This document shows, in pieces, positions 13,271-46,504 of a DNA stretch of 64,000 nt. Origin of the DNA: Eutreptiella sp. 'Long Island Sound 2002' (taxonomy: Eukaryota; Euglenozoa; Euglenophyceae; Eutreptiales; Eutreptiaceae). The stretch's first letter is position 1; every line of letters begins with the position of its first letter. Position numbers and translations under genes: made by a program. Location of the stretch: assembly GCA_964036045.1 (NCBI GenBank), contig OZ038378.1:164173311-164237310 (forward strand), written 5' to 3'. The notes beneath the pieces were generated by a model. It did no database searches. It saw only the letters and a program-made list of their open reading frames with translations, and had not been told where the DNA came from.

Positions 13271-13723
13271 GGAGGCTGAAGTGGCTGGGGAAGTGGATCG
13301 CTCCGGTGCCGTAGGACCGCCGACCCTAGCCAGGATGGCCAGGGTGTCCGCAAGGCCGTCACTGAAGTTCTTAGGCCAATGTGCAGACGTCCCGCATGCT
13401 GGGAGTTGCAAATGGCTGGGGCCCGTGGAGGTGTAAGTACTTTTGGGTGTGCTGGTGGGTGGATTTACCCAAAAGAAGAGCCCCATCCATGGTGGCAGGA
13501 TGGAATGGGCTCCTTCTGGGGGGTTTGGGGCTGTTACCCGGTCTAGCGCCCTTCTCTGCTGCGGGTCGCGGGGGTTGGTGGCCGGAGATAATGGCCTGAT
13601 ACCTGAAATTTGTTGAGAATTTTACCGGGAGTGGGGGTGGCACATGCCGAATACTGAGGACTGTACGGTATGGTACAGTACAGTATGGTGTGGTGCGTTG
13701 CGGTGCGGCACAGTACGGTACAG
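13271..13723. repeat. Satellite-edge unit U, copy 1
   Basis: A ~453-bp block nearly identical to 28,081-28,533 (about six visible differences). Its last 60 bp (13,664-13,723) are 12 degenerate pentamers in exact register with the following satellite (TACGG, TATGG, TACAG, TGTGG, TGCGG and so on), the usual look of the decayed edge of a tandem array. This appears to be the left border of the whole satellite/LINE structure. Confidence 0.85.
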
Positions 13724-14046
13724 TATGGTATGGTATGGTATGGTATGGTATGGTATGGTATGGTATGGTATGGTATGGTATGGTATGGTATGGTATGGTA
13801 TGGTATGGTATGGTATGGTATGGTATGGTATGGTATGGTATGGTATGGTATGGTATGGTATGGTATGGTATGGTATGGTATGGTATGGTATGGTATGGTA
13901 TGGTATGGTATGGTATGGTATGGTATGGTATGGTATGGTATGGTATGGTATGGTATGGTATGGTATGGTATGGTATGGTATGGTATGGTATGGTATGGTA
14001 TGGTATGGTATGGTATGGTATGGTATGGTATGGTATGGTATGGTAT
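13724..14046. repeat. (TATGG)n satellite tract T1, ~65 copies
   Basis: Essentially perfect pentamer repeat between the degenerate edge and the 3' end of element E8. Frames reading WYGMV or YHTIP through it are not genes. Confidence 0.98.
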
Positions 14047-14689
14047 GTTGTTGTTGTTGTTGTTGAGGGCACCCAGCACGTGCCGGCGGGAGAAATTGCC
14101 AGACACGCTCTCCCTGGGCAGGGCGCAAGGGAGCAGTCGGCCGGCGTCACGCTGGCCGGGCGTGTGCCGACGACGACCGAGGGGGGGGGGGGGGGGCGCC
14201 GTGGTGTGGGGGGGGGGGGTGGGGCGCGTGTGGAGGAGGGTGGGGCCACCTGAGGACGTCACCCTGGGGCCCTCCCCCGTCTCGCGGGGGGAGAGTTACT
14301 CGTCCTGTGCGAAGCGGCTGTGGCGGGGGCGGAGGGTGGGGCGGCGACCTTGGGGTGGGGAAGGCACGCCCGGGTCCACGGACAGTCCGCGCCTTGCCCG
14401 AACGTCCCGCCGAGGTGGCCGTTCCTCGTGTGAGGCCGTGGCGTGGCCGGGGGCGCTGGCCCGTGCTTCTAGCCTTCTACAGGGGCGAGGGGAGGCCTGG
14501 GAGTTGCGGTCTGCCGGCGCCTAGTCACCTCTGCTGGAGTTGCGTTGTGGCCGCCTCGTCCCCGGTAGTGCGGGCGCGCGCGCGCGTCGGTCATGGGGGA
14601 GGGAGGGCACAAGGGCGGGAGCACAAGAGCACGAACCTGGGTTCACTGTCGCTGGCGTGCTGTGTTCGGTTCATGTGATGTTCCCTGGT

Positions 14690-15339
14690 GCCTGTCCCTG
14701 TGCCCTGCGTACGGGAGGCCGCGCGGCACAGCCGGCGGGGGGTCGCAGCCCGGGCCGTGCGCGTGGGTAGCGGCGGGCGGCCGGGTGGGACGTGGCGCCA
14801 TGCGGGTGCGGGGCCCGTGGCGGTCGCGGGGGGTCGCGGGCGGTCCAGCCGGCGGTCGGCAGTGGCCCTGAGCGTCCCACACAGTGGGGTCGGTGGGCGT
14901 GCCGGGGGAGGGCGCGTCCTGCAGGTCATGCTGCGGAGGGCGCGCGCGCAAGGGCGTCGGCGTGCCCGGTGCGGGCCCCTCTGCGGGCCGAGGGACCCGC
15001 GGTGAGCTGGTTGCGTTGCCTGGGGGCTGAGGCCGGGGCCGGGCGCATGAGTAGCGGCGGGCGGCCGAGTGGGTGCGGGGGCCTTGGCGGTCGCTGGGAG
15101 GCGTGGGCGGCCCAGCCGGCGGTCGGCAGAGGCTCCAAGGGCCCCACACCGTGGGGCCCGGGGGCGTGCCGGGGGCGAGCGCGCTGTGCAGGCCAAGCTG
15201 CGGGGTGCGCACGTGCGAGGGTGTCGGCGTGCCCGTCGGGGGCCCCCCGAGGGCCGTGGGACCCGCGGCTGGCAGGGAGCGCTGCTCGGGGGCCGAGGCC
15301 GGGGCCGGGCGCGTGGGTAGCGGCGTCAACGGGGTCGAG
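14690..15339 (-). repeat. ~270-bp tandem repeats in the LINE 3' region (E8)
   Basis: Three units carry GGGTAGCGGCGGGCGGCCG or variants (near 14,765, 15,050 and 15,315). On the minus strand the units encode degenerate, partly frame-shifted versions of the ORF2 C-terminal sequence (GHADAL... and PVDPSVWDSQ in intact copies; PTDPTVWDAQ here). The 3' UTR repeats therefore probably arose by tandem duplication of the ORF2 end. Confidence 0.65.
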
Positions 15340-16808
15340 TGGCCCCTGGGTGGGGGAGGATGCCGTGGAACGGTTCCAGGGGAGGGGAGGGCAGCCGGAG
15401 GACTGTGCGAGTGGCGGAAGTGATGGAGGGGGAGGAGAGGACTGCAGCGCGAGAGACGTAGCCGCGGGCGGCCGATGCCTCCCGGAGGGCAAAGGACTGG
15501 GCGGCGAGGTCTTGCGTGGAGAGGGGAAAGGTGAACCGGGTCAGGGAGGTGGGCGTTGAACAGGAGGGCCCGGCCCCCTAGCGAGAGGGGGACCGCGGAG
15601 GCATGCCAGTGCTGGCCGTCGTAGACGAGGTTGGCGGGTTGGGAGGGGGCGCGGAGGGACCGGAGCCAGGCCGTGCGGAGGCCTGAGCCCTGGCCGGAAG
15701 CGGTGCTGTAGTGGGCCTCGTACCTCGGTGGGAGGGCGGGGCGGGCCGAGGCTAAGTCCCAGAGTTCCTGCTCGGCGACCACGTCGGGGGACAGGGCCTC
15801 GAGCCAGGTGCGGGCCAGGGAGACTTGGCCGGCGATGCCGCCCTATTTGTGTGTGAGAAAGGTGAGGGCTGTGTCGCGGAGGGGGGTGGACGCCTGGTCA
15901 CGGGGGTCGGGGAGGGAGAGGACGAAGGCGGGGGTCGGCTGGAGGAGGCGGTCGGGGGGGGGGGCGCAGGGGGCGGCCCAGGGGATGGCGGAGACGGGGA
16001 CAGCCCCGGGCAGTAGCATGCCTTGGAAGCCGACCACACAGCGGGCGGCGATGTCACGAGTGCACACAGGCGGGGCCTTGTGGGGGGAGGTGCAGAAGAA
16101 GTGAGGCCAGTGGTCGGTCGGCGATGTGGGGAGGTCGACGAAGGCGGTGTGAGGCCTGGGGCGTCCACAGTCGGGGCAAGCGGAGGAGGTGACGAGCGGG
16201 GCGTCGGGGAGGGCGGGGTGTAGTGCCCACGCTGAGGTCGGGACTGACGAGCGAGTGTACGCTGGGGACGGGGGGAGGGGGGTTGTAGGCAAGTGGGCGG
16301 TGTCCCAGAAGGCGGTCCACTTGGCGTCCACGTGCAGGGGAGGGGTGCTCCAGAAGGAGGGGTCACCGCGCTGGCGGGGGAAGGAGGCGAGCCAACCGCA
16401 CACCGTGGGGAGGGCGGAGGCGAGGAGCGAGGGGGGTAGCGACGTGGAGACCCGGGCGGCGTGCAGGAGGTCTCGGAGGGGGCCCGGGGGGAGGTCGGCG
16501 GCCGGGGGGAGGCCAAGGGGGAGAAGGTCAGCAGAGTGTGCGCACACGGGGCAGCGCGTGAGGGCAGGGCGCAGAAGCGTGCCGCAGTGAAGGCATATAC
16601 GGGGGGCGGAGGCCGGTGGTGGAGCGGGTGCGCGGGGGGGGGGGCCACGGGCGTGGGACTGGGGACGGGGCTCTGGGGCGGAGAGAAGGTCAGCCCCGGC
16701 GCGGTGGGCGTCGAGTGGGCGGGGGAAGTGGGAGGCGAGGAAAGTCGCCCAGGCTAGGGTCGGGAGGTCGGGAGCGCTGGAGGCGGGGAGCGTGTCTGGT
16801 AGGGCGAG
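15340..16808 (-). pseudogene. ORF2 N-terminal fragment of E8 (zinc ribbon, partial EEP)
   Basis: Directly after the ORF1 TGA the same frame continues without a Met into a zinc ribbon (ICLHCGTLLRPALTRCPVC, C-x2-C...C-x2-C), then a segment with CPDCGRPRP, then the start of an EEP nuclease. A TAG at 15,845-15,843 replaces the Trp of THNWGG found in E7. The frame then resumes with the catalytic-Glu motif DVVAEQELWD, in which this copy keeps the Trp lost in E7. The EEP core is deleted from about 15,530. Confidence 0.65.
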
Positions 16809-17651
16809 TCAGTTGTGTCTGCGGGCACTGGGGAACATGGCGCCGCGGACTGCCCTGCCTGACGAGGGGGCCGAGGGTGTTGTGCGGCCATGGTGCCGCG
16901 GGGAGCGTCGGGGGGAGGAACGGGGGGGTGACTGCTGGCGGCTGCGTTTGGCGGGGCGGGGCTGAGGGTCGCCCGGGACGGGCGGGCGGTGGGAGGGTGG
17001 GGTGTTGAGAGTGGCAGTGGGGGCGTGCCAAGGTTGCCCATCGTCCCGTCTGCCCTGGACCGTAAGGGACCAGCCCTCGTTGTGTTGGATGACGCGCGTG
17101 GGCAGCGAGGCGAAGAGGGAGGTGTGCAGGGCAGGGGCGATGTGGGCGAACGCGTGCCCGCGGCGGGCGTCGGCGTCAGTGACGTACACGACGGTCTGCA
17201 GGTTGTGGGTGAGGGTGACTGCCATGGAGGGGTGCGGGCCTAGGCGGAGGCCTGAGACGCGGACGACGCCGGTGGTGGCTGGCGAGGAGCCGACGGGGGC
17301 GAAGGTGGGGACCGAGGAGGCGGGGGTGGCGCCGGTGGCGGAGGGCGCGGGGGCGCCCGGGAGGGGGGGCTGGCCGAGGAGGGGAGGGGCGAAGAGTGGC
17401 GCGGGCGGGGCGGCGGCGCCAGGGGCTAGCAGGGAGGGCGCTGGCGGTGCGGAGGAGCCAAGGCGGAACCAGTCCAGGTCCGCCGTGGAGCGGGGGGGGA
17501 GGGCATTTTTGGTGTAGGAGATGAGCTCCTGGAACTGGGCCGGGGTGGAGAGTCGGCCACACAGCCGTGCGATGGCTGCGCGGAGGGTGTCGGCGGAGGA
17601 GACGTGTTGGAGGTCCTGGTAGGCCTCTATGGGGAAGGAGGGGGCGCTGGC
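16809..17651 (-). pseudogene. ORF1 C-terminal fragment of E8
   Basis: 281 codons matching the C-terminal part of ORF1 in E7 (shared ADLDWFRLGSSAPPAPSL and VVRVSGLRLGPH), ending at TGA 16,811-16,809. At the E7 position with a premature TAG this copy has CAA (Gln), so the E7 stop is secondary. The Pro/Ala-rich middle and the basic tail (RPAKRSRQQ) would suit an RNA-binding gag-like protein; no RRM or CCHC motif is seen. Confidence 0.7.
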
Positions 17652-17990
17652 TATGGTATGGTATGGTATGGTATGGTATGGTATGGTATGGTATGGTATG
17701 GTATGGTATGGTATGGTATGGTATGGTATGGTATGGTATGGTATGGTATGGTATGGTATGGTATGGTATGGTATGGTATGGTATGGTATGGTATGGTATG
17801 GTATGGTATGGTATGGTATGGTATGGTATGGTATGGTATGGTATGGTATGGTATGGTATGGTATGGTATGGTATGGTATGGTATGGTATGGTATGGTATG
17901 GTATGGTATGGTATGGTATGGTATGGTATGGTATGGTATGGTATGGTATGGTATGGTATGGTATGGTATGGTATGGTATGGTATGGTATG
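17652..17990. repeat. (TATGG)n satellite tract T2, ~68 copies
   Basis: Perfect pentamer array between the truncated 5' end of E8 and the 3' tail of E7. Confidence 0.98.
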
Positions 17991-18639
17991 TTGTTGTTGT
18001 TGTTGTTGTTGTTGTGAGGGCACCCAGCACGTGCCGGCGGGAGAAATTGCCAGACACGCTCTCCCTGGGCAGGGCGCAAGGGAGCAGTCGGCCGGCGTCA
18101 CGCTGGCCGGGCGTGTGCCGACGACGACCGGGGGGGGGGGGGGGGGGGGGCTTGGTGTGGTGGGGGGGGGGGGGGGGAGTGCGCGTGGAGAAGGGAGGGG
18201 TCACCTGTGAGTTACCCTAGAGCCCTCCCCTGTCTCGTGGGGGGAGAGCGTCCCGACCTGTGCGAAGCGGCTGTGGTGGGGTTGGAGGGCTGGGCGGGGA
18301 CCTTGGGGTGGGGAAGGCACGCCCGGGTCCGCGGACACTCTGCGCCTTGCCCGAACATCCCGCCGAGGTGGCCGTTCCTCGTGTGTGGCCGTGGCGTGGC
18401 CGGGGGCGCTGGCCCGTGCGTCTAGCCTTCATCGGGGGCGAGGGGAGGCCCGGGAGTTGCTTTCTGCTGGCGCCTAGTCACCGCTGCACGTGTTGTGGTG
18501 TGGCCGCCTCGTCCCCGGTGGTGCGGGCGCACGCGCGTGTTGGTCAGCGGGGAGGGTGGGCACAAGGGCGGGAGCACAAGAGCACTATAACGGGTATACG
18601 GCTGGTGTCGTGTTGTGTTTGGTCCGGCTGTGGTTCCCT

Positions 18640-19102
18640 GGTGCCTGTCCCTGTGTCCCGCGTGCGGGAGGCCGCGCGGCACAGCCGGCGGGAGGGCCGA
18701 GGCCGGGGCCGGGCGCATGGGTAGCGGCGGGCGGCCGAGGCGGAAGCGGCGCCAAGCGGGCGCGGGGCCCCTGGCGGTCGCGGGGAGGTGCGGGCGGTCC
18801 AGCCGGCGGTCGGCAGTGGCCCCGAGAGCCCCACACAGTGGGGTCGGCGGGCGTGCCGGGGGCGAGCGCGTCGTGCAGGCCAAGCTGCGGGGGGCGCATG
18901 CGCAAGGGCGTCGGCGTGCCCGATGGGGGCCCCTCTGCGGGCCGTGGGACCTGCGGCTAGCAGGGAGCGTTGCCCGGGGGCAGAGGCCGGGGCCGGGCGC
19001 GTGGGTAGCGGCGGGCGGCCTAGGCGGAGGCGGCGACAACGGGCTCGGGTGCCCGAGGCGTGCGCGGGGCGGTGTGTGCGGGCCGGCCGGTGGCCGGTGG
19101 CC
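18640..19102 (-). repeat. ~280-bp tandem repeats in the LINE 3' region (E7)
   Basis: Two units of the same family as in E8 (GAGGCCGGGGCCGGGCGC near 18,698 and 18,983), directly after the ORF2 stop. Confidence 0.65.
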
Positions 19103-22100
19103 TCACTGAGAGTCCCACACGGAGGGGTCGACAGGCATGCCGGGGGCGTATGCGACGTGCAGGTCGGGCAGCAGAGGGCGCACGTGCAGGGCGTCGGCGT
19201 GCCCGATGAGGACCTCACTGAGCACCGAGGGGTTGGCGGCGAGCAAGACGCGTTGCCCGGGGGGGAGTGGCAGCGAGGAGCGGGAGGATGTCCGCGGCCC
19301 GCGACGCGGGGGTGAACACGACGTGGGCCGGGTGCGGCCCCGGGAGAGGCGCCGGGGGGAGCGGGACCACAGGCTGGCGGTCCACCGTGAGGCGCCAAGT
19401 GGCGCAGTGGCGGAGGAGCCAGACTAGGGCGATGATGTGGCGCAGTGTGAGGGGCTGGGTGCAGGGCGGCGCGGGGACGCGCGGCGGGAGGGGGGGGGGG
19501 CGGGGCGGCGACGTGGGAGGGGGCACGGCGGAGGAGTGATGCCAGCGACGTGCGCGTCGTGCTAAGGGTGGAAAGGAGCTCGCGGAGGAGTCCCTCCCGG
19601 CCGGTGCTGTCCAGCAGGGGGGGGGGGGCGCCGTGGGGGGAGGTGGAGTGCCACATGCCCAGCATACTGAACACCAACTGCGTCGGGGGGCCGGGTCGCG
19701 GGGCGGCTGGGAGGTGCTCGGAGAGATACACGGCGGCGGTGGCCGTGCGGAGCTCGAAAGGGGAGACGAGGTGGGGGGAGTGGCCGGCCGTGGCTGCCAG
19801 AACGGGCGGGTGCGTGAACAAGCGCCACGCGAGGAGCAACTGCAGGGCGTAGTGGGGGGGGCAATGGTACTGGAGGTGAGCGGCGGAGTCCGGGTAGGGG
19901 CGGTGACAGAAGGGGCACGTCACTCCCCCATAGCCGGGGGGATGGTCCTGGGAGCGCAGTAGCCGGAGGTGCATGATGCGGTGGAGGGCTAGCGCTGGGA
20001 TATCGGCGCGTTCATACGCGAGGCGGAGTAGGTGAGAGGACCAGCCTGGGGGCAGGGGCCGGAGGTGCAACGTGTGGGTGCGGGTGGTGGTGGCCGCATA
20101 CGCTGCCTCTGCGGCGCGCGCGGGGCTCAGGAAGACCTCGCCCTCACGGAGCGCCACGATGCGGCCGTGGAAGAGTGCGGACCAGGGGAGGGTCCACGGG
20201 GAGGCGGTGTGGAGCCCGCGGCGGGCTAGGGCGTCGGCCTCGGCGTTGAGGGTGGCGAGGTGGCTGGCGGAGCCGGAGTCGTGTTGCGCGGGGAGCCAGG
20301 CTTCGTGCATGCGGAAGGAGGCGGAGAGGAGGGCCGCTCGGTACGGGATGGAGAGGGCGGAGGAGGGGGGTGGGCCGCGGGTGAGGTCGCAGAGCTGGGA
20401 GGCGGTGGAGTCTGAGGCGAAGAGGGCCTCGCCGGACCAGCCACGGAGGGCGAACATGGCGGCTATCTTGGCGATCCACTCTGCGTCGGTGGAGTGACCG
20501 GCGAGGGCGTGGAGGCCAAGCCAGCTGCGGTAGAGGGTGCCGTGATGGGCGGAGTGGCCTGGGCGGTAGGCGAAGGAGGCGGGGGTGTAGGTGGAGGTGA
20601 GCTCGAGGTCGGCGGCTAGGCGGGTCGTGGCGATGGCGGAGGCTCCGCCGGAGACACCCGATTCCACGTCGACGGGGCGGAAGGAGCGTGTGAGGTGCCG
20701 GGGGAGGGGCTTGGTAGGCTTCCCTTTGTAGAGGCCGTAGCGGACGGTCTCGTTGGAGACGCCCGGGGTGCCGGACTCGAGCTGGAGGAGGAGGTGAAGC
20801 ACCCCGAGGTGGACGCCTCCGCCGCTGCGGAAGAGCGCTGCGCGTGCCACGTTGTCAGTGGACACGGCGAGGGAGCGCTTGCCCATGCGGCGGTGGGCGA
20901 GGGAGACGGTGGTGATGAGGGGGGGGGACTGGCGGGCGAGGGCGTACGCCCGGAGGGAGGCGGGAGAATCTGGTCGGGCGTTCGCGCGGAGGGCGTCGCG
21001 GAGGAGGGGGAGAGTGAGATCGGTGGGCGGGTTCAGGAGGGGGAGCCAGGGGTCCGGGGTGCAGCAGGCGGCGTCCACGGAGACGTGCCGGTTGGCAGCT
21101 TGGGATCGGGATTGGGCCGTGACCTCGGCGAGCCGTTCCTCGCGGGTTGCGAGGGTGGCCCCCGGGTGGGGGAGGATGCCGTGGAACGGTTCCAGGGGAG
21201 GGGAGGGCAGCCGGAGGACTGTGCGGGTGGCAGAGGTGATGGAGGGGGAGGAGAGGACGGCAGCGCGAGAGACGTAGCCGCGGGCGGCCGATGCCTCCCG
21301 GAGGGCAGAGGACTGGGCGGCTAGGTCGTGGGTGGAGAGGGAAAAGGTGTACCGGGCCAGGGACCGTAGTAGAGCGGGGGTGTCGGGCGGGTGCGGGAGC
21401 AGCTGGTGCGCGATGAAGTGGTGGGCAGCGATGTATTGGTCGGGGAGGGAGGGGGTAAGGGAGAGCCAGCCCCATGCTAGGTCAAGGGCGGTCGAGAGGG
21501 AGTCCATGTCTTGAAGAGTTGCCAGGCGCCATCGGAACAGACGCCAAGAGTGGGCGTCGCAGGAGCGGTGGTGTAGAGTGACCTGCGCCAGCACCATGGC
21601 GTGCGAGGTGTGGCAGGGGAGGACGTGGTGAGTGTGGGAGGCGATGGGTCCGGTGGCGAAGATGTGGTCGATGGCGGTGGACCGGGGGGAGCCGTGGCGG
21701 GTGGTGAAGTTGGTGGGAGTGGCAGGGCAGACCAGGCGGTGCCACGCCGAGAATGGGCCCAGGGCTCCGAGCGCGGAGGCCAGGGGGGTGCCTGGGGCTC
21801 CCGTGCTGTTGAGGTCGCCCAGGAGGACGCACAGGTCGGGACGCATGCGGGAGCGGAGGTGGTTCATGAGCCTGACCTCGGACACCCACTCGGAGTACGA
21901 GAGGCGCGGGGGGAGGCGGGCGTTGAACAGGAGGGCACGGCCCCCTAGTGAGAGGGGGACTGCGGCGGCAATCTAGTGCGGGCCGTCGTAGACGAGGTCG
22001 GCGGGCTGGGAGGGGGCGCGGAGGGACCGGAGCCAGGCCGTGCGGAGGCCTGAGCCCTGGCCGGATGCGGTGCTGTAGTGGGCCTCGTACCGTGGTGGGA

Positions 22101-23146
22101 GGGCGGGGCGGGCTGCGGCCAAGTCCTAGAGTTCCTGTTCGGCGACCACGTCGGGGGACAGGGCCTCGAGCCAGGTGTGGGCGAGAGAGACTTGGCCGGC
22201 GGTGCCGCCCCAGTTGTGCGTGAGGAAGGTGAGGGCTGTGTCGCGGAGGGGGGTGGACGCCTGGTCGCGGGGGTCGGGGAGGGAGAGGACGAAGGCGGGG
22301 GTCGGCTGGAGGAGGCGGTCCGGCGGGGGGGCGCAGGGGGTGGCCCAGGGGATGGCCGAGACGGGGACCGCTCTGGGTAGTAGCATGCTTTGGAAGCCCA
22401 CCACACAGCGGGCGGCGGTGTCCCGAGTGCACACGGGCGGGGCCTTGTGGGGGGAGGTGCAGAAGAAGTGAGGCCAGTAGTCGGTTGGGGATGTGGGGAG
22501 GTCGACGAAGGCGGTGTGAGGCCTGGGGCGTCCACAGTCGGGGCATGCGGAGGAGGCGACGAGCGGGGCGTCGGGGAGAGCAGGGTGTAGCGTCCACGCT
22601 GAGGTCGGGCCTGACGAGCGAGTGTACGCTGGGGACGGGGGGAGGGGGACTGACGGCAAGTGGGCTGTGTCCCAGAAGGCGGTCCACTTGGCGTCCACGT
22701 GCAGGGGTAGGGTGATCCAGAAGGAGGGGTCGTGGCGCTGGCGGGGGAAGGAGGCGAGCCAACCGCTCACTGTGGGGAGGGCGGAGGCGAGGAGCGAGGG
22801 GGGTAGCGACGTGGAGACCTGGGCGGCGTGCAGGAGGTTTGGGAGGGTGCTGAAGGGGGAGGAGGTCAGCAGAGTGCGTGCACTCTGGGCAGCGCGTGAG
22901 GGCCGGGCGCCGCAGCGTGCCGCAGTGAAGGCATATACGGGGGGCGGGGGCGGGTGGTGGAGTGGGTGCGCGGGGGGGAGTCTCTCGGGTGTAGGGTTGG
23001 GGATGGGGCTCCGGGCCGGGAAGGAGGTCCGCTCCGGCGCGGTAGGCGTCGGGTGGGCGGGGGTAACGGGAGGTGAGGAAGGTTGCCCAGGCCAGGGCCG
23101 GGAGGTCGGGAGCACTGGAGGCAGGGAGAGTGTCCGGTAGGGCGAG
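19103..23146 (-). pseudogene. LINE ORF2 (E7): zinc ribbon, EEP, RT N-terminus, partial RNase H, CCHC
   Basis: Read in the ORF1 frame after the TGA. Zinc ribbon ICLHCGTLRRPALTRCPEC (~22,935). EEP nuclease: THNWGG, catalytic-Glu motif DVVAEQEL, LCVLLGDLN (~21,815) and TAIDHIFATG (~21,660), with SHAMV in place of the usual SDH. The RT N-terminal region has a KPTKPLPRHL...FRPVDVES block and FAYRPGHS (~20,555). There a deletion removes the palm (no F/YADD box exists) and thumb. It resumes in RNase H with DAEWIAK, FASDST and NAEADALARRG. The C-terminus has a zinc knuckle CPFCHRPYPDSAAHLQYHC (~19,915) and ends VWDSQ-TGA at 19,103. Two TAG codons and two indels break the frame. Function when intact: nicking of the target and reverse transcription of the element RNA. 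Confidence 0.8.
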
Positions 23147-25243: not shown

Positions 25244-25387
25244 GGTGCCTGTGGGGAGCGGAGCAAGGGAGGGTCCGACACACGGCGTGCCGGGGGGTGG
25301 GAGGACCGTCGACGGTTGTGGGCGCCGGTCATGGCGTGGGGTGGGGGTGGGAGGGGTTGGTCGGGGTGGGCGGGCGGGAGGAAGGAA

Positions 25388-25738
25388 TAAGCCGAGGCAA
25401 GCGCTCAGGGCCCGGAGGCTCCGGCATGCAGAGCGAACAGTGCTACCGGCAGTGGCGCAAAGTAAGAAAGGGTGGGGGGGGCTGGTGGGCCAAGCGTGGG
25501 TGGGGGCCGTCGCTGGGCGTGGCGGTCGTCGCGAGGTGGTACCGGGCGTGGGTGGCCGCTGGGTGTGGCGTCAGGCGGGTGGGAGGGCGGTGGGAGGCCT
25601 GTGCCGGGGGCGGGTGTCGGGGGTGGGGTGGGGCGGGCTGGTGGGGGGCAGAAAAAGCCGAGGCAAGCGCTCGAGGCCCGTAGGCTCCGGCATGCAGAGC
25701 GAACAGTGCTACCGGCGGTGGCGCAAAGTAAGAAGGGG
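25388..25738 (-). promoter_or_regulatory. Duplicated 5' UTR monomer upstream of ORF1 (E7)
   Basis: An ~85-bp block (GCATGCAGAGCGAACAGTGC on the + strand) occurs at about 25,388-25,475 and again at 25,651-25,738, period ~263 bp; E5 has it once (~35,517-35,590). It lies 150-500 bp upstream of the ORF1 start on the minus strand. By analogy with the tandem 5' UTR monomers that act as promoters in mouse L1, it may hold the internal promoter; this is inference. Confidence 0.45.
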
Positions 25739-35363: not shown

Positions 35364-36332
35364 GGTGCCTGTGGGGAGCGGAGCAAGGGAGGATCCGACA
35401 CACGGCGTGCCGGGGGGTGGGAGGTCCGTTGCCGGCTGTGGGCGCCGGTCATGGCGTGGGGTGGGGGTGGGAGGGGTTGGTCGGGGTGGGCGGGCGGGAG
35501 GAAGGGAGAAGCCGAGGCAAGCGCTCAGGGCCGGGAGGCTCCGGCATGCAGAGCGAACAGTGCTACCGGCAGTGGCGCAAATGTAGAAAGGGGGGTGGGG
35601 GGCGGGTCAGGTGCGGGTGGTGGTCGTCGCTGGGCGTGGTCGGGGGGGGTTGGGCGGGGTGGGCGGTCCAGAGCTGGGCTCTGGGGGTCGGTGGCGTGTG
35701 GTGGTGGTGGGTGCGTCCTGCTACCGGTGTCCTACTACGAGGAAGTGATGAGGGTGAAGACTGCTTGGGGACTGAGGCCGGAGAGCCTGGGGCGGGGGAA
35801 TGGGGCGTTGGCGGCGGGTTATCCCCGGCTGGGATGGCCGGGGTGCCCTGGGGCCCCGTGGGGGCGGAGGCTCCCCACGTCGGCTGGGTGCGAAACCTCG
35901 GCCTGTTCTTCCGTCACCGAAGTTCTTAGGATTCGACCCCAGGAACTTACCCGCCGCGGGGACTGTGGGCCGGGACGGCCAAGGGGGATGATTATGAAGA
36001 GGAAGTGGGGGGCCAGGATGAGCCCGGCGGTTGGCACCTGCCTTCGGCCTGGGGGAGGCCGATGCCCGGGGCTATTACCTCTCCCGTGTGCCCGTGGTGC
36101 GGTGGTGGGTGGCGGTGTGGTACCCCCCAACCGGCGACTGTGCCCGGTGCCGTGGGCACAGACCCCCGTTGGGGGCGGGTATGAAGCGCCCGGTCGCCTC
36201 GCCCCCCCTGCACAACAGCCCGCCAGGCGCTGCTAGGCCTCTAGCGCCAGCCGTTGTGGGGGGGGGGCGCTCGGGGCAGTGCGGGGCCCCTCCGCACTCC
36301 TGGCGGCCCGCACTGTCCGTACAATGCAACAA

Positions 36333-36376
36333 GGGGCGGCGCGGGCTCGAACCGCACGCGCGGGCCGCGCCGCCCC
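36333..36376 (-). promoter_or_regulatory. 5' UTR hairpin (E5)
   Basis: Minus strand GGGGCGGCGCGG pairs with CCGCGCCGCCCC around GCGGTTCGAGCC; perfect stem in this copy. A second box-B-like GGTTCAAGCCC lies near 36,447-36,457 in the same 5' UTR. Confidence 0.5.
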
Positions 36377-37653
36377 AGTCGGGGTGGGGGACAGGGGGGG
36401 GACCGGGGGGGGACAGGGGGTCGCGGCCAGTGGATGTAGGGTGGCGGGGGCTTGAACCGCGCACCGGCGGGCCCCACCACCCTCCAGTCGGGCGTCGCTG
36501 CGCCAGGGGTTCTGGGGGCCCCACCCAAGGGCCATCGGCCCCCCCCTTTCGGTTAGTGTGAGGAGGGAGAGGCAAAGGCCACTCGCGGCCATGACACATG
36601 GTGCATAGGGAGGGAGGTATGACTCACGCCACGCCATGATGCATGCAGCAGGGGGAAGGGGGGGCAAGGCCTGGACCCCCATCGCGTATGGGGGGGTCCT
36701 CTTGTCAGCCCGGCGGCCGACCGTCGGCGGCTGCGGCAGCTCACCATGGTGGCGTCGTCCATCTGTGAGGTGGAGCGGTGGGCAGGGGTGGTGGGGGGAC
36801 GTCGAGCACGTGGGGGGGGGGGGGGTGTGGGTTGGTGGGCGGGCGCGCGCGTGAGGGGGAGGGGGTAAGGTGAGCTCAGCCGCAGAGCGTCACCGGGCGG
36901 CTGACCGGGGCGGGGGAGCGGTCGGGGCTGGCCAAAGTCGGCCGGGGAGCCCGGGGCGCTCGTGGTGCTGGGGGCCGCGGTCAGCGGTGGGGCCCGCACC
37001 CCGCTCGGCGGGGACGAATCCCGCCGAGCATCATCCACGGGGGCGAATCCTGGCGGAGGCGGGGGAGCGCCACGCCGTCCCCTCGCGGCCGAACCGGACC
37101 GGGACGGGCCCCGCCGGATGGATACCGGGGGGGCGGGCTGGGCTGGGCACCGGGGCTCCGGGGCCCGGGTCCCTAGTGGTTGTGGACCGGCGCGGGGGAG
37201 ACCGGGCGGGCCCATGGGCTGCGGCTGGTGAGGGGGGGGCGTGGAAGGGCCGGGCGGGCTCGAGGGCGAACCCCGAGCGGCCCTCGGGGGCTGGGCGAGG
37301 GCTCCCGAGGGCGGCCGTTCCTTGAAGGGGGGGGGGGGGGGTTGCTCCCTGCCCGGGGGACGACGGGGGCCCCTCTTGAGCGAGGGGGGGGGAGGGCGTG
37401 TATCGCCCGGTGTAGGGCCATGTCGATTCATGGCCGCGCGGCATGGGACTATATCCCCAACCCTCCGCGCCGGAGTCCCTTTTTGCGGGGGCTGAGGGGG
37501 GGGGGGGCTGGCGGTCGTTGTGTGCACCCTCCCATGCGGGGGGGGTCGCCGGTGGGAGCTCCGTCCGGCTTGGCCGAAAATACCCGGTGGCGTCCCCTGG
37601 GCCCGAGGGCCCCTTCGAGGAAGAACCTGGGATTCGCCGGGGGGACTCCGCTA

Positions 37654-37662
37654 TATGGTATG
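37654..37662. repeat. (TATGG)n satellite tract T6, under 2 copies
   Basis: TATGGTATG only, between the E5 5' end and the E4 3' tail. The junction phases are the same as at the long tracts. Confidence 0.9.
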
Positions 37663-40600
37663 TTGTTGTTGTTGTTGTTGTGAGGGCACCCAGCACGTGC
37701 CGGCGGGAGAAGTTGCCAGACACGCTCTCCCTGGGCAGGGCGCAAGGGAGCAGTCGGCCGGCGTCACGCTGGCCGGGCGTGTGCCGACGACGACCGAGGG
37801 GGGGGGGGGGGGGTGGGGGCCGCCATGTCGGGGGGGGGGGTGCGCGTGCAAGGAGGAGGGAGGAGCCACCTGTGTGTGTTACCCTGGAGCCCTCCCCCAC
37901 TGCGGGGGGAGGGTGACCCGACCTGTGCGAGACGGAGGCGGGTGGGGGGGCTGGCTGGAGGGACCACCTGTTCGGGGACCTGCGGGGCCCCGATTCCCCT
38001 TGCTTCCGGCCGCCGCTCCCCCACGACAGGGGAGGGGGCAATCTGCCTGCGTGCCCCTGAACCGCACGAGCGCGGGCGTGGAGGGGCGCTGCCCGATTCC
38101 TGTGGGGCCTGCACAGCACAGCTGGTGCGGCCCTGGTGTGCGGGGGTCCCTGTGGGGCCTGCACAGCACAGCTGGTGCGGCCCTGGCGTGCGGGGGTTCC
38201 TGTGGGGCTTGCACAGCACAGCTGGTGCGGCCCTGGCGTGTGGGGGTTTCTGTGGGGCCTGCACAGCACAGCTGGTGCGGCCCCGGCGTGTGGAGGTTCC
38301 TGTGGGGCTTGCACAGCACAGCTGGTGCGGCCCTGGCGTGTGGGGGTTTCTGTGGGGCCTGCACAGCACAGCTGGTGCGGCCCTGGCGTGCGGGGGTTCC
38401 TTTGGGGCCTGCACAGCACAGCTGGTGCGGCCCTGGCGTGTGGGGGTTCCTGTGGGCCTGCACAGCACAGCTGGTGCGGCCCTGGCGTGTGGGGGTTCCT
38501 GTGGGGCCTGCACAGCACAGCTGGTGCGGCCCTGGTGTGCGGGGGTTCCTGTGGGGCTTGCACAGCACAGCTGGTGCGGCCCTGGCGTGTGGAGGTTCCT
38601 GTGGGGCTTGCACAGCACAGCTAGTGCGGCCCTGGCGTGTGGGGGTTCCTGTGGGGCCTGCACAGCACAGCTGGTGCGGCCTTGGCGTGCGGGGGTTCCT
38701 GTGGGGCCTGCACAGCACTGCTGGTGCGGCCCTGGCGTGTGGGGGTTCCTGTGGGGCCTGCACAGCACAGCTGGTGCGGCCCTGGTGTGCGGGGGTTCCT
38801 GTGGGGCTTGCACAGCACAGCTGGTGCGGCCCTGGCGTGTGGAGGTTCCTGTGGGGCTTGCACAGCACAGCTAGTGCGGCCCTGGCGTGTGGGGGTTCCT
38901 GTGGGGCCTGCACAGCACAGCTGGTGCGGCCTTGGCGTGCGGGGGTTCCTGTGGGGCCTGCACAGCACACCTGGTGCGGCCCTGGCGTGTGGGGGTTCCT
39001 GTGGGGCCTGCACAGCACAGCTGGTGCGGCCCTGGCGTGTGGGGGTCCCTGTGGGGCCTGCACAGCACACGTGGTGCGGCCCTGGCGTGTGGGGGTTCCT
39101 GTGGGGCCTGCACAGCACTGCTGGTGCGGCCCTGGTGTGCGGGGGTTCCTGTGGGGCTTGCACAGCACAGCTGGTGCGGCCCTGGCGTGCGGGGGTTCCT
39201 GTGGGGCTTGCACAGCACAGCTGGTGCGGCCCTGGCGTGCGGGGGTTCCTGTGGGGCCTGCACAGCACAGCTGGTGCGGCCCTGGCGTGCGGGGGTTCCT
39301 GTGGGGCCTGCACAGCACAGCTGGTGCAGCCCTGGCGTGTGGGGGTTCCTGTGGGGCCTGCACAGCACAGCTGGTGCGGCCCTGGCGTGCTGTCCGCTTC
39401 CCGTGGGGCCGGCACAGCACAGCTGGTGCGGCCCCGGCGCGTGGGGGCAGGAAGTGAGAGGCGTGGGCCCCCGCCCAGGGTTCTGAGGTCCCCTCCCAGG
39501 GACCTGTGGTCCCCCTGAACGTCTCCTGTGAACGAGGCAGGGGCTGGGGTGGGGGCAGGGGGGAAGGCGGTGCACAGAGGGGAGGAGGATGACTCATGCC
39601 ATATGAGGCCGCACTGGGCCGGTGCACGGGGGCGAGAGGGAGGAGCAAAGCCTGGGGCCCCTGCCGGTAGTGGGGGGGCCCGACGATGATCTGGAGCCAT
39701 GCTGGCTGCGACCACGGTGGCCTGCTTCCGTTGCCACGGGTTACCTGTTGGGAGCGGAGGAAGGGACGGGCAGGGGGAGAGGGAGGAGGGGGCACGGGAG
39801 GGGGGGGCAGGCGGGGTGAGGGGGGCTGTGTGTGGGGGTTGGCGAGCGTGCGCGGGGGTGGGGGTGCGGCGAGCTCAGCCGCCGAGCGTCACCGTGCGGC
39901 TGACCGGGGCGGGGGAGCGGTCGGGGCTGGCCAAAGTCGGCCGGGGAGCCCGGGGCGCTCGTGGTGATGGGGGGCCACGTTCAGCGATGGGGCCCGCACC
40001 CCGCTCGGCGGGGACGAATCCCGCCGAGCGTCATCCACGGGGGCGAATCCTGGTGGAGGCGGGGGGAGTGCCTCGCCGTCCCCTCGCGGCCGAACCGGAC
40101 CGGGACGGGCCCCGCCGGATGGATACCGGGGGGGCGGGCGGGGCTGGGCACCGGGGCTCTGGGGCCCGGGTCCCGGGAGGTCGTGGGCCGGCGCGGGGGA
40201 GACCGGGCGGGCCCTGGGGCTGCGGCTGGTGAGGGGGGGGCGTGGGAGGGCCGGGCTGGCTCGGGGGCGAACCCCGAGAGGCCCTCGGGGGCTGGGCGAG
40301 GGCTCCCGAGGGCGGCCGTTCCCTGGGGGGGGGGGGGGGGGTTGCTCCCTGCCCGGGGGACGACGGGGGCCCCTCTTGAGCGAGGGGGGGGGGCGGGCGT
40401 GTATCGCCCGGTGTAGGGCCATGTCGATTCATGGCCGCGCGGCATGGGACTATATCCCCAACCCTCCGCGCCGGAGTCCCTTTTTGGGGGGGCTGAGGGG
40501 GGGGGGGGGCTGGCGGTTGTCGCGTGCACCCAGCCATGCGGGGGGGGGGGTCGCCGGTGGGAGCTCCGTCCGGCTTGGCCGAAAAAACCCGGTGGCGTCC

Positions 40601-40663
40601 CTGGGCCCGTGGGCCCCTTCGAGGAAGAACCTCGGATTCGCCGGGGGGGACTCCGCTACGCTA
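37663..40663 (-). mobile_element. LINE-derived non-autonomous copy E4 (~3.0 kb)
   Basis: Same layout as E6: family 5' end (with a small insertion, CTACGCTATATGG on the + strand), ~830-bp 5' UTR, expanded 50-bp minisatellite, common 3' tail with (CAA)6 at 37,663-37,680. Confidence 0.8.
38101..39447. repeat. 50-bp minisatellite M2 (~27 units) in E4
   Basis: Longest array of the 50-bp unit. Higher-order duplication is visible: a run of units with GTGTGGAGG and TAGTGCGG variants near 38,540-38,690 repeats at about 38,780-38,930. The 645-codon + frame and 638-codon minus frame across it are periodicity artefacts. Confidence 0.95.
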
Positions 40664-40707
40664 TATGGTATGGTATGGTATGGTATGGTATGGTATGGTA
40701 TGGTATG
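40664..40707. repeat. (TATGG)n satellite tract T7, ~9 copies
   Basis: Perfect pentamers between E4 and E3. Confidence 0.97.
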
Positions 40708-42791
40708 TTGTTGTTGTTGTTGTTGAGGGCACCCAGCACGTGCCGGCGGGAGAAATTGCCAGACACGCTCTCCCTGGGCAGGGCGCAAGGGAGCAGTCGG
40801 CCGGCGTCACGCTGGCCGGGCGTGTGCCGACGACGACCGAGGGGGGGGGGGGGGGGGGGGGCGCCATGTCGGGGGGGGGGGGGGTGCGCGCGCGAGGAGG
40901 AGGGAGGAGCCACCTGTGTGTGTTACCCTGGAGCCCTCCCCCACTGCGGGGGGGAGGGTGACCCGACCTGTGAGCGACGGAGGCGGGATGGGGGGCAGGC
41001 TGGAGGGACCACCTTTTCGGGCACCTGCGGGGCCCCGCTTCCCCTTGCTTCCGGCCGCCGCTCCCCCGCGTCAGGGGAGGGGGCGTTCTGCCTGCGTGCC
41101 CCTGTACCGCACGTGCGCGGGCGCGGTGGGGCGCTGCCTGTGTCCTGTGGGGCCCGCACAGCACTGCTGGTGCGGCCCTGGTGTGCGGGGGTTCCTGTGG
41201 GGCCCGCACAGCACTGCTGGTGCGGCCCTGGTGTGCGGGGGTTCCTGTGGGGCCTGCACAGCACTGCTGGTGCGGCCCTGGTGTGCGGGGGTTCCTGTGG
41301 GGCCTGCACAGCACTGCTTGTGCGGCCCTGGCGTGTGGGGGTTCCTGTGGGGCCCGCCCAGCACTGCTGGTGCGGCCCTGGCGTGTGGGGGTCCCTGTGG
41401 GGCCCGCACAGCACTGCTGGTGCGGCCCTGGTGTGCGGGGGTTCCTGTGGGGCCTGCACAGCACTGCTGGTGCGGCCCTGGCGTGTGGGGGTTCCTGTGG
41501 GGCCCGCACCGCTCTGCTGGTGCGGCCTTGGCGTGTGGGGTTCCTGCGGGGCCCGCTCAGCACTGCTGGTGCGGCCCTGGCGTGTGGGGGTTCCCGTGGG
41601 GCCCGCACAGCACTGCTGGTGCGGCCCCGGCGTGTGGAGGTTCGTGTGGGGCCCGCACAGCACTGCTGGTGCGGCCCTGGCGTGTGGGGGTTCCTGTGGG
41701 GCCTGCTCAGCACTGCTGGTGCGGCCCTGGCGTGTGGGGGTCCCTGTGGGGGCCTGCACAGCACTGCTGGTGCGGCCCTGGCGTGTGGCGGGGGGTTGCA
41801 GGAGAGAGGGAGTATGCCTGGGACCCCCGCCGGCGGTGGGGGCCCGTAGTTGTCTTGACGTCACGACGCGAGGTTGGTTCTCTCACTGCACCTGTGATGC
41901 GAAAAGGAAGGGAGGGGACAGGGAGGGAGGGGCGGCGTGTGCGGAGAGGGGGGGGGGGGGGCGTGGGAGGGGCGTGTGCGCGCGTGAGGGGGAGGGGGTG
42001 AGGTGAGCTCAGCCGCAGAGCGTCACCGGGCGGCTAATCGGGGCAGAGGAGCGGTCGGGGCTGGCCAAAGTCGGCCGGGGAGCCCAGGGCGCCCGCGGTG
42101 TCGGGGGGGCGCGGTCAGCGGTGGGGCCCGCACCCCGCTCGGCGGGGACGAATCCCGCCGAGCATCATCCACGGGGGCGAATCCTGGTGGAGGCGGGGGG
42201 AGCGCCACGCCGTCCCCTCGCGGCCGAACCGGACCGGGACGGGCCCCGCCGGATGGATACCGGGGGGGCGGGCGGGGCTGGGCACCGGGGCTCCGGGGCC
42301 CGGGTCCCTGGTGGTTGTGGACCGGCGCGGGGGAGACCGGGCGGGCCCATGGGCTGCGGCTGGTGAGGGGGGGGCGTGGAAGGGCTGGGCGGGCTCGAGG
42401 GCGAACCCCGAGGGGCCCTCGGGGGCTGGGCGAGGGCTCCCGAGGGCGGCCGTTCCTTGAAGGGGGGGGGGGTTGCTCCCTGCCCGGGGGACGACGGGGG
42501 CCCCTCTTGAGCGAGGGGGGGGGGGGGGCGTGTATCGCCCGGTGTAGGGCCATGTCGATTCATGGCCGCGCGGCATGGGACTATATCCCCAACCCTCCGC
42601 GCCGGAGTCCCTTTTTTCGGGGGGCTGAGGGGGGCGGGGGGGGCTGGCGGTTGTGGAGTGCACCCTCCCATGCGGGGGGGGGGTTGCCGGTGGGAGCTCC
42701 GTCCGGCTTGGCCGTGTAAACCCGGTGGCGTCCCCTGGGCTCGTGGGCCCCTCGAGGAAGAACCTCGGATTCGCCGGGGGGGACTCCGCTA
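40708..42791 (-). mobile_element. LINE-derived non-autonomous copy E3 (~2.1 kb)
   Basis: Family 5' end at 42,791, 5' UTR to ~42,000, 50-bp minisatellite, common 3' tail with (CAA)6 at 40,708-40,725. Very similar to E2, including the sequence between minisatellite and 5' UTR (GTAGTTGTCTTGACGTCACG), so E2 and E3 are recent relatives. Confidence 0.8.
41146..41790. repeat. 50-bp minisatellite M3 (~13 units) in E3
   Basis: Same unit as M1 and M2, but with the GCACTGCTGG variant in nearly all copies, shared with M4. Confidence 0.95.
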
Positions 42792-42925
42792 TATGGTATG
42801 GTATGGTATGGTATGGTATGGTATGGTATGGTATGGTATGGTATGGTATGGTATGGTATGGTATGGTATGGTATGGTATGGTATGGTATGGTATGGTATG
42901 GTATGGTATGGTATGGTATGGTATG
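42792..42925. repeat. (TATGG)n satellite tract T8, ~27 copies
   Basis: Perfect pentamers between E3 and E2. Confidence 0.97.
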
Positions 42926-44823
42926 TTGTTGTTGTTGTTGTTGAGGGCACCCAGCACGTGCCGGCGGGAGAAATTGCCAGACACGCTCTCCCTGGGCAGG
43001 GCGCAAGGGAGCAGTCGGCCGGCGTCACGCTGGCCGGGCGTGTGCCGACGACGACCGAGGGGGGGGGGGGGGGGGTGGGGGCCGCCATGTCGGGGGGGGG
43101 GGGGGGTGCGCGCGCGAGGAGGAGGGAGGAGCCACCTGTGTGTGTTACCCTGGAGCCCTCCCCCACTGCGGGGGGGAGGGTGACCCGACCTGTGAGCGAC
43201 GGTGGCGGGATGGGGGGCAGGCTGGAGGGACCACCTGTTCGGGCACCTGCGGGGCCCCGCTTCCCCTTGCTCCCGGCCGCCGCTCCCCCGCGTCAGGGGA
43301 GGGGGCGTTCTGCCTGCGTGCCCCTGTACCGCACGTGCGCGGGCGCGGTGGGGCGCTGCCTGTGTCCTGTGGGGCCCGCACAGCACTGCTGGTGCGGCCC
43401 TGGTGTGCGGGGGTTCCTGTGGGGCCCGCACAGCACTGCTGGTGCGGCCCTGGTGTGCGGGGGTTCCTGTGGGGCCTGCACAGCACTGCTGGTGCGGCCC
43501 TGGTGTGCGGGGGTTCCTGTGGGGCCTGCACAGCACTGCTGGTGCGGCCCTGGCGTGTGGGGGTCCCTGTGGGGCCCGCACAGCACTGCTGGTGCGGCCC
43601 TGGTGTGCGGGGGTTCCTGTGGGGCCTGCACAGCACTGCTGGTGCGGCCCTGGCGTGTGGGGGTTCCTGTGGGGCCCGCACCGCTCTGCTGGTGCGGCCC
43701 TGGCGTGTGGGGGTTCCTGCGGGGCCCGCTCAGCACTGCTGGTGCGGCCCTGGCGTGTGGGGGTTCCCGTGGGGCCCGCACAGCACTGCTGGTGCGGCCC
43801 TGGCGTGTGGGGGTTCCTGTGGGGCCCGCACAGCACTGCTGGTGCGGCCCTGGCGTGTGGGGGTTCCTGTGGGGCCTACTCAGCACTGCTGGTGCGGCCC
43901 TGGCGTGTGGGGGTCCCTGTGGGGGCCTGCACAGCACTGCTGGTGCGGCCCTGGCGTGTGGGGGGGGTTGCAGGAGAGAGGGAGTATGCCTGGGACCCCC
44001 GCCGGCGGTGGGGGGCCCGTAGTTGTCTTGACGTCACGACGCGAGGTTGGTTCTCTCACTGCACCTGTGATGCGAAAAGGAAGGGAGGGGGGGGGGGGGG
44101 GGGGGGGGCGTGGGAGGGGCGTGTGCGCGCGTGAGGGGGAGGGGGTGAGGTGAGCTCAGCCGCAGAGCGTCACCGGGCGGCTGACCGGGGCAGAGGAGCG
44201 GTCGGGGCTGGCCAAAGTCGGCCGGGGAGCCCAGGGCGCCCGCGGTGTCGGGGGGGCGCGGTCAGCGGTGGGGCCCGCACCCCGCTCGGCGGGGACGAAT
44301 CCCGCCGAGCATCATCCACGGGGGCGAATCCTGGTGGAGGCGGGGGGGAGCGCCACGCCGTCCCCTCGCGGCCGAACCGGACCGGGACGGGCCCCGCCGG
44401 ATGGATACCGGGGGGGCGGGCGGGGCTGGGCACCGGGGCTCCGGGCCCCGGGTCCCTGGTGGTTGTGGACCGGCGCGGGGGAGACCGGGCGGGCCCATGG
44501 GCTGCGGCTGGTGAGGGGGGGGCGTGGAAGGGCTGGGCGGGCTCGAGGGCGAACCCCGAGGGGCCCTCGGGGGCTGGGCGAGGGCTCCCGAGGGCGGCCG
44601 TTCCTTGAAGGGGGGGGGGTTGCTCCCTGCCCGGGGGACGACGGGGGCCCCTCTTGAGCGAGGGGGGGGGAGGGCGTGTATCGCCCGGTGTAGGGCCATG
44701 TCGATTCATGGCCGCGCGGCATGGGACTATATCCCCAACCCTCCGCGCCGGAGTCCCTTTTTTCGGGGGGGCTGAGGGGGGGCGGGGGGGGCTGGCGGTT
44801 GTGGAGTGCACCCTCCCATGCGG
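42926..44823 (-). mobile_element. LINE-derived non-autonomous copy E2, 5' end lost in the gap
   Basis: The common 3' tail with (CAA)6 at 42,926-42,943, 50-bp minisatellite and 5' UTR are present up to CCCTCCCATGCGG, where the N gap begins. By comparison with E3 about 120 bp to the 5' end are missing. Confidence 0.75.
43366..43965. repeat. 50-bp minisatellite M4 (~12 units) in E2
   Basis: Nearly the same unit variants in the same order as M3. Confidence 0.95.
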
Positions 44824-45023
44824 NNNNNNNNNNNNNNNNNNNNNNNNNNNNNNNNNNNNNNNNNNNNNNNNNNNNNNNNNNNNNNNNNNNNNNNNNNNNN
44901 NNNNNNNNNNNNNNNNNNNNNNNNNNNNNNNNNNNNNNNNNNNNNNNNNNNNNNNNNNNNNNNNNNNNNNNNNNNNNNNNNNNNNNNNNNNNNNNNNNNN
45001 NNNNNNNNNNNNNNNNNNNNNNN
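44824..45023. other. Assembly gap of exactly 200 N
   Basis: A round-number gap, so its true length is unknown. By the order of the array it should hold the E2 5' end, a (TATGG)n tract and the E1 3' part. Confidence 0.95.
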
Positions 45024-46434
45024 GGGGCGGCGCCGGGGTGAGCCCTGACCAGCCCTAATCGCTGTGCCGTAGTGCGCTGGAGCGTTGGGGGGGCGCCAGA
45101 GCGCTTGGGGGGCGCCAGAGCGCATTTGCACATAGCGTTGGGGCAGTGCGGCGCCCATCCGCTCTCCTGGCGGACCGTACTGCCCGTATACAGCGTCAGA
45201 GGGCGGTGCGGGCCCGAACCGCACGTGCGGGCCGCGCCGCCCATGCCTGGAGGGGGTCGGGGTCCGGTGGGAGGTCTGGGGGGTCTGCGGGGTGTCGGGA
45301 GAGGGGGTTCGTGTCCTGTGAACAAGGCTGGGGCTGGGGCAGGGGCAGGGAGGGGGGGGAGGCAAAGGCCTCTCACGGCCATGACGCATGGTGCATGCAC
45401 ACGAGGAAGGAGGGGCAAGGCCTGGACCCCCGCCGCGTATGGGGGGTCCCTCTGTCAGCCACGCGTCTTCCCGTCGGCGGCTACGGCAGCACACCTCGGT
45501 GGCGTTGGCTACCTGTGAAAGGAGGTGGGGGGCGTGGAGGGGCGGCGGGCACGAGTGTGGCTGCGGGGGCATGGCGAGCGCGTGGGGGGGGGGGGGGGGG
45601 GCTGTGAGCGTGAGGGTGGGCGTGCGCGCGAGGGGGTGGGGGTGCGGTGAGCTCAGCCGCGAGCGCCACCGTGCGGCTGACCGGGGCAGAGGAGCGGCTG
45701 GGGCTGGCCAAAGTCGGCCGGGGAGCCCGGGGCGCTCGTGGTGCTGGGGGCCGCGGTCAGCGATGGGGCCCGCACCCTGCTCGGCGGGGACGAATCCCGC
45801 CGAGCATCATCCACGGGGGCGAATCCTGGTGGAGGCGGGGGGAGTGCCGCACCGTCCCCTCGCGGCCGAACCGGACCGGGACGGGCCCCGCCGGATGGAT
45901 ACCGGGGGGGCGGAAGGGGCTGGGCATCGGGGCTCCGGGGCCCGGGTCCTGGTAGTGCGTGGGCCGGCGCGGGGGAGACAGGGCGGGCCCTGGGGCTGCG
46001 GCTGGGGGGGGGGAGGGGCGGGAGGGCTGTGCTGGCTCGGGGCCGAATCCCGAGTGGCCTCCGGGGGCTGGGCGAGGGCCCCCGAGGGCGGCCGCTCCAT
46101 GGGGGGGGGGGGGGTGCTCCCTGCCCGGGGGACGACGGGGGCCCCTCTTGAGCGAGGGGGGGGGGGCGGGCGTGTATCGCCCGGTGTAGGGCCATGTCGA
46201 TTCATGGCCGCGCGGCATGGGACTATATCCCCAACCCTCCGCGCCGGAGTCCCTTTTTTGGGGGGGTTGAGGGGGGGGGGGGGGGGCTGGCGGTTGTTGT
46301 GTGCACCCACCCATGCGGGGGGGGGTCGCCGGTGGGAGCTCCGTCCGGCTTGGCCGAAAAAACCCGGTGGCGTCCCCTGGGCCCGTGGGCCCCTTCGAGG
46401 AAGAACCTCGGATTCGCCGGGGGGGACTCCGCTA
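45024..46434 (-). mobile_element. LINE copy E1, 5' UTR part only
   Basis: The most upstream copy on the minus strand. Its 5' end at 46,434 meets T9. The visible 1.4 kb is 5' UTR, including the autonomous-type segment with the hairpin (45,201-45,241) that E2-E4 and E6 lack. The rest lies in or beyond the gap. Confidence 0.75.
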
Positions 46435-46504
46435 TATGGTATGGTATGGTATGGTATGGTATGGTATGGTATGGTATGGTATGGTATGGTATGGTATGGT
46501 ATGG
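46435..46504. repeat. (TATGG)n satellite tract T9, 14 copies; right border of the array
   Basis: Perfect pentamers ending abruptly at TCTCGTATGGGTACC, after which composition returns to normal. Unlike the left border there is no degenerate edge. Confidence 0.97.

Follow-up and report, generated by a model that had tools for sequence, protein, structure and literature searches.

An APE-type LINE family of the euglenid Eutreptiella sp. associated with C/TA tandem repeats in fixed orientation and in head-to-tail arrays

Target-specific LINEs of the APE type are, to our knowledge, known mainly from animals, and most of them use one fixed target. Waldo and Mino, microsatellite-targeting LINEs of the R1 clade, have (ACAY)n and (AC)n as targets and, as far as we know, occur in insects only. 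Also in the R1 clade are TRAS1 and SART1, which insert into the silkworm telomeric repeat (TTAGG)n/(CCTAA)n; as excerpted, the reports on these elements describe a TRAS1 endonuclease whose cut falls, on the G strand, at the T-A junction and which cleaves other telomere repeats too (PMC2868851), and a SART1 that needs at least three target units (PMC7265360). Closer to euglenids by host, the L1Tc/ingi clade of trypanosomatids combines an AP endonuclease, an RT, an RNase H, and a nucleic-acid chaperone in one LINE and has short non-coding derivatives, according to the excerpted account of these elements (PMC4748587). Here we describe a LINE family of Eutreptiella sp. 'Long Island Sound 2002' that resembles TRAS1 and SART1 in having an AP-like endonuclease in ORF2 and short tandem repeats of C/TA type at its insertion sites, and that differs from them in its interspersed microsatellites with several kinds of unit, its euglenid host, its (CAA)n tail, and its copies of ~11 kb.

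The window, i.e., the whole stretch of 64,000 nucleotides analysed here, spans positions 164173311-164237310 of contig OZ038378.1 (hereafter C1) in the 2.28 Gb assembly GCA_964036045.1, and its part from 13.7 to 46.5 kb is made up of copies of one GC-rich repeat, on the minus strand throughout. Matching of the end motifs located seven exact 3' ends (14066, 18017, 28573, 30765, 37683, 40726, and 42944), together with six exact ends on the 5' side (27927, 30695, 37651, 40656, 42789, and 46432), all on the minus strand; each of the 7 visible 3' ends carries a (CAA)n tail. Two 5' regions that share 90.4% identity (44087-44823 and 45585-46318) lie one on each side of a 200-N assembly gap (44824-45023), which means that the gap conceals an end of each kind, one 5' and one 3', and that the array holds eight copies. 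The initial annotation had described eight head-to-tail copies on the minus strand that, in nearly every case with visible ends, share a 5' sequence and a (CAA)n-tailed 3' end and are separated by nothing except 9-339 bp of (TATGG)n, joined in one case by a duplicated edge sequence, and all of this agrees with the end motifs and coordinates obtained here.

Read from its left edge, the array begins with the first copy of the edge sequence U (13273-13742) and (TATGG)65 (13723-14047), the downstream flank of copy A. This copy (14066-17651, minus strand; (CAA)n tail at 14048-14065) is internally deleted and 5'-truncated, its truncation abutting TATGG at 17652, and such a truncation together with the constant 3' tail is a hallmark of LINEs. 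Beyond (TATGG)68 (17652-17990) lies copy B (18017-27929, minus strand), which at 9.9 kb is long and lacks ~1.24 kb of the RT region, a deletion recognised by comparison with another locus (L069), as well as the 50-bp repeats discussed below; its frame of 1142 codons (18547-21972, minus strand; Exo_endo_phos, E 9.6e-06) includes the end of the endonuclease domain and the start of the RT fused to the RNase H-like portion. After (TATGG)30 (27933-28081) comes the second copy of U (28083-28552), 98.7% identical to the first over 470 bp and again joined to TATGG, and then copy C (28573-30697, minus strand), an internally deleted copy of 2.1 kb that consists of the 5' region, 50-bp repeats, and the 3' end. 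Copy D (30765-37653, minus strand; 6.9 kb) follows after (TATGG)10 (30698-30746) and is without the endonuclease region and the 50-bp repeats. Copy E (37683-40658, minus strand; 3.0 kb), internally deleted and with 27 units of 50 bp, is set off from D by the shortest spacer (~9 bp of TATGG, 37652-37660; the longest is the 339 bp between A and B), and (TATGG)9 (40664-40707) separates it from the internally deleted copy F (40726-42791, minus strand; 2.1 kb). The last two copies flank the gap: G1 (42944-44823, minus strand), internally deleted and with its 5' end lost in the gap, is preceded by (TATGG)27 (42792-42925), and G2 is represented by its 5' part (45024-46434, minus strand), the 3' end being inside the gap, and is flanked upstream by (TATGG)16 (46435-46514) and then single-copy DNA.

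COX1 could be read without stops on dozens of small contigs of the assembly and indicates a euglenid host, so that a vertebrate host, first considered from the genome size, was rejected. Among solved structures its best match is 8IUF (684 bits, the next reaching 423 bits), the supercomplex of Euglena gracilis (PMC10884005), and the many differences in this alignment suggest a euglenid other than E. gracilis; in principle, the contigs with COX1 might belong to a companion organism. The family extends far beyond this locus, as exact matches to its 23-base 5' end number 675 across the genome, and those to the reversed control sequence 0. Since the junctions within the array also hold pure pentamer arrays of up to about 67-68 units, its arrangement is not due to chance. 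Both ends could be located for six long copies outside the window (one each on contigs C6, C1, C2, and C5 and two on C4), with lengths of 10.7-11.5 kb that derive from coordinates and from a pairing of the two ends inferred from their spacing to the RT match; missing 5' ends were sought in six regions, of which four were readable, while one (L095) showed no visible end and another (L099) had an N run at the expected place. At the 3' side, 34 of 35 sampled ends finish in (CAA)n with 5-8 units. A protein search of the genome yielded 1747 candidates; the 150 that received a score all showed 91-100% identity, and among these 150, 35 had frames of at least 1600 aa without a stop inside the match, and one further frame of this length had a stop inside it. 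The family looks young, given its 675 exact 5' ends, the 91-100% identity, and the many long open frames. A known RNA at the element's 5' end was considered and rejected, with 0 Rfam matches at the gathering score and a fold z-score of -0.50; two sub-threshold Rfam matches are both antisense to the element.

One copy on C4 (L094) has an open ORF2 of 1736 codons. Residues 332-521 of this protein match Exo_endo_phos, the APE-type endonuclease family (Pfam, E 7.1e-12), and residues 836-1058, in the place where an RT is expected, give a sub-threshold match to RVT_1 (E 0.034; 14.3 bits, where the cut-off is 29.6). Reading the sequence by eye, we recognised RT motifs including SYSDD, an RNase H-like series of acidic residues, and a CCHC motif, which would give the order endonuclease, RT, RNase H-like, and CCHC, the latter three as read by eye. 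No Pfam match to an RNase H family was obtained up to E 10, NCBIfam gave no match to ORF2, ORF2 and pieces of it matched no solved structure at the thresholds used, and a single-sequence structure prediction of the RT region reached a pLDDT of 34. Judged by the sub-threshold Pfam score and these motifs, the RT of ORF2 appears very divergent. We take the order endonuclease-RT-RNase H-CCHC to fit the I group of LINEs, which comprises I, R1, ingi, and others.

Insertion sites were assessed in samples of the search matches, consisting of 39 of the 40 scored 5' matches (one of them, L009, lies in the window; one other match in the window was left out) and 35 of the 40 scored 3' matches, the remaining five lying in the window. 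A tandem repeat with a unit of at most 50 bp abuts 36 of the 39 5' ends and 35 of the 35 3' ends, compared with 5 to 11 of 30 control positions located 500-1300 bp from the ends that fall inside such repeats (17-37%, TRF), a background that is not low, and repeats with units of at most 8 bp that do not touch the ends make up ~2% of the 120,750 bases examined. Long arrays of minisatellites with units of 11-16 bp also serve as flanks in these samples. A TA is present within 30 bp of the end in 74 of 74 sampled flanks, which by itself is weak evidence. These samples favour copies similar to the query, and hence we also took a census of C1, reading each of its 65 listed exact 5' ends (5 of them in the window), a set from one contig that favours young copies and contains clusters, so that not all of its members are independent. 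In this census a tandem repeat recognised by TRF abuts 61 of 65 ends, with a unit of TA type in 21, CCATA (= TATGG) in 20, CATA in 15, CCCATA in 2, and a mixed CATACCATA unit, a C-rich unit, and the (CAA)n tail of a neighbouring copy (L143) in 1 each; the other four ends (L102, L111, L135, and L137) had no TRF repeat, a short TA run being visible at L102. The proposal in the initial annotation of a site-specific LINE with a satellite as its landing pad is thus supported as tandem-repeat targeting, and genome-wide, and the outcome that it had named as speaking against it, most copies in unrelated sequence, did not occur. Its narrower expectation that most ends would abut (TATGG)n fails at 20 of 65, and an exclusive (TATGG)n target is ruled out by the 21 TA-type and 15 CATA flanks.

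The orientation of insertion relative to the repeat is strict. In the last 60 bp of the census flanks, three or more CCATA units stood on the element's sense strand in 23 cases and three TATGG units in 0, and the CATA strand was the sense strand in 18 flanks and the TATG strand in 0; across the census, the sense strand had more C than G in 53 of 65 flanks, more G than C in 3, and equal numbers in 9, mostly (TA)n. Similarly, 53 of the 54 flanks of the search samples not classed as TA had a sense strand richer in C than in G, the exception (L030) being a flank with a short (TA)n array at its end. Head-to-tail neighbours recur as well: 15 of 74 sampled ends (including L009, in the window) have, on the far side of the repeat and no more than 1.45 kb away, a copy in the same orientation, a lower bound because nine 5' and five 3' loci reach only ~400 bp outward, and 2 of 74 (L022 and L030) have a neighbour in the opposite orientation. 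A fixed strand and the repeated use of one repeat suffice to account for the window's array.

Other processes could, in principle, give rise to such an association. An element that inserts anywhere might make the repeats itself, its ends seeding or spreading microsatellites in the manner that the excerpted report describes for lepidopteran RTE elements (PMC2887409), and the (CAA)n tail is indeed a repeat in its own right. Moreover, when the first eight (CCATA)n arrays among the matches listed on C1 were grouped by eye, six bordered an element end and two had no element, so that these repeats do exist without the element and yet a surprising share of the pure CCATA arrays is occupied. The existence of unoccupied arrays argues against such an origin of the repeats, and so does the finding that the repeat varies between copies but matches at the two ends of one copy, which was seen in all six long single copies (CCATA on C6 and C1, TA in three of the others, and CATA in the remaining one). 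The long arrays of 11-16 bp units that also act as flanks point the same way, as does a short copy within a minisatellite on C5, where variants of the minisatellite run on across the copy, and we regard a repeat-making element as quite improbable. Both flanks of this C5 copy share a match of 14 bp, either a possible target-site duplication or just the minisatellite unit; since it equals one unit (14-15 bp), we rejected it as proof of such a duplication, and at the other loci the perfect repeats hide both the target-site duplication and the position of the nick.

Unequal recombination between TATGG-flanked units might likewise have produced most of the array, in which case its head-to-tail order would say nothing about targeting. 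The duplication of U within the array, joined to TATGG, shows that recombination did share in building it, and the 3' ends of F and G1 are 97.6% identical. As the main source of the array, however, recombination is unlikely, because the same kinds of repeat hold single copies elsewhere and the copies of the array differ in internal structure and diverge from each other (2.4-16% for the 3' end, 4.4-13% for the 5' end), and thus are not one amplified unit. These differences, by which the copies in the window can be told apart, also speak against an assembly artefact, a suspicion that the 200-N gap inside the array and the near-identical repeats might raise; the same arrangement is found at other loci on several contigs, and we consider an artefact extremely improbable.

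Very probably, then, the array reflects a young APE-type LINE of ~11 kb that inserts into C/TA tandem repeats of its euglenid host in a fixed orientation and stacks head to tail. Its target would be a tandem repeat with TA in the unit, usually after C, on the sense strand of the element, such as (TA)n, (CATA)n, (CCATA)n, (CCCATA)n, (CCCTA)n, and minisatellites resembling them, and the strand asymmetry of the repeat would fix the orientation. Mechanistically, we infer that the element's own endonuclease chooses the repeat and places a nick in its G-rich strand, at the TA or close to it, that the (CAA)n-tailed RNA is primed from the nick for target-primed reverse transcription, and that repair then leaves repeat on both sides. 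Each insertion would thereby keep a target next to it, where later copies may land beside earlier ones and build a head-to-tail array.

Our best reading is that this element works like TRAS/SART with a broader target, a likeness of target and endonuclease type. There is also a resemblance to Waldo and Mino, as (ACAY)n includes (ACAT)n, one target of the euglenid element. L1Tc/ingi elements are likewise Euglenozoa LINEs and, by their description, would have a similar set of domains, and differ in that their description, as excerpted, mentions no microsatellite target (PMC4748587). LINEs of the HERO clade, in the excerpts at hand, have a restriction-like endonuclease, in contrast to the euglenid ORF2 with its match to the APE-type family. 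Among the matches listed in the literature search (titles and beginnings of abstracts), none named a LINE that targets TATGG/CCATA or a repeat-targeting LINE in a euglenid. Tandem-repeat-targeting LINEs as such are already known, and what is new here is a broader, rule-like target for such a LINE, in a supergroup without a report of this kind among the matches listed.

We tentatively suggest, as a possibility that we would put somewhat below even, that this family represents a deep, unnamed, non-animal lineage of APE-type LINEs in which targeting follows a degenerate tandem motif (C up to about four times, an optional A, and TA, with the C-rich strand as the sense strand) and not a fixed sequence, and for which the unstable C/TA microsatellites as a whole class are a renewable safe harbour where it forms its own arrays and perhaps helps to keep the repeats. 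With 675 5' ends, many long frames, and a broad and strictly oriented target, the family would let one test what the endonuclease reads, whether sequence, repeat structure, or a TA step. It also illustrates how a LINE can live in a genome where its insertions are unlikely to damage genes, and how head-to-tail arrays rich in GC come about.

Of the sampled 5' loci, 28 of 30 contain a 50-bp minisatellite that begins 0.8-1.35 kb inward of the 5' end and that is absent from copies A, B, and D of the window. Internally deleted copies that keep both ends, as do C, E, F, and G1, resemble the non-autonomous derivatives of R2 and R2/R1 elements as outlined in the excerpted report (PMC3414825), which differ in their rDNA target and in their type of endonuclease. 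The 50-bp repeat also lies ~0.4 kb from the 3' end in 6 of 30 sampled 3' loci (a count that leaves out L060, where it sits only in the next copy), and in this position it marks internally deleted short copies like those of the window.

The eleven-kilobase APE-type LINE that forms the (TATGG)n-separated copies in the window also clusters elsewhere on the same contig (C1), where eight exact matches to its 23-base 5' end, among them one at C1:100254190, lie within positions 100241684-100487234 of that contig. Seven of these ends have the same orientation as the adjacent ones, within a range of 46 kb to 246 kb, and the majority lie in (CATA)n. This cluster is a further array of the window's LINE family, housed in a repeat other than (TATGG)n.

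The element itself carries tandem repeats. Its 5' part contains a 50-bp minisatellite (window 28987-29488, 38097-39447, 41143-41788, and 43365-43964), the unit number of which varies from 10 to 27 in the window, and which was found at the same element position in 28 of 30 sampled genomic loci that include the 5' part; perhaps these units are promoter-like monomers. Downstream of ORF2, the frame for the endonuclease and the putative reverse transcriptase, diverged tandem units of ~284 bp were observed in copy A (window 14748-15325) and in another genomic locus, L069 (4379-4948). Further tandem repeats in the window included a direct duplication of ~0.92 kb with 94% identity (1090-2931), within which units of 194-196 bp are nested, an array of 22-bp units, near-palindromic at the core (AGTATACGGCCGTATACT; 4147-4229), and a GC-rich repeat with units of ~96 and ~188 bp (11554-11958).

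As separate observations on the assembly (G000), a stop-free COX1 frame of 545 aa was present on dozens of small contigs (e.g., C57, C78, and C116; locus L093), as if the mitochondrial genome consisted of many molecules or was poorly assembled. A second COX1, on contig C42 (locus L092, 17856-19199), has seven in-frame TGA codons and is far from the first, euglenid one; its top relative among solved structures was 7jro (842.7 bits), a plant enzyme, and it may stem from a companion organism's mitochondrion.
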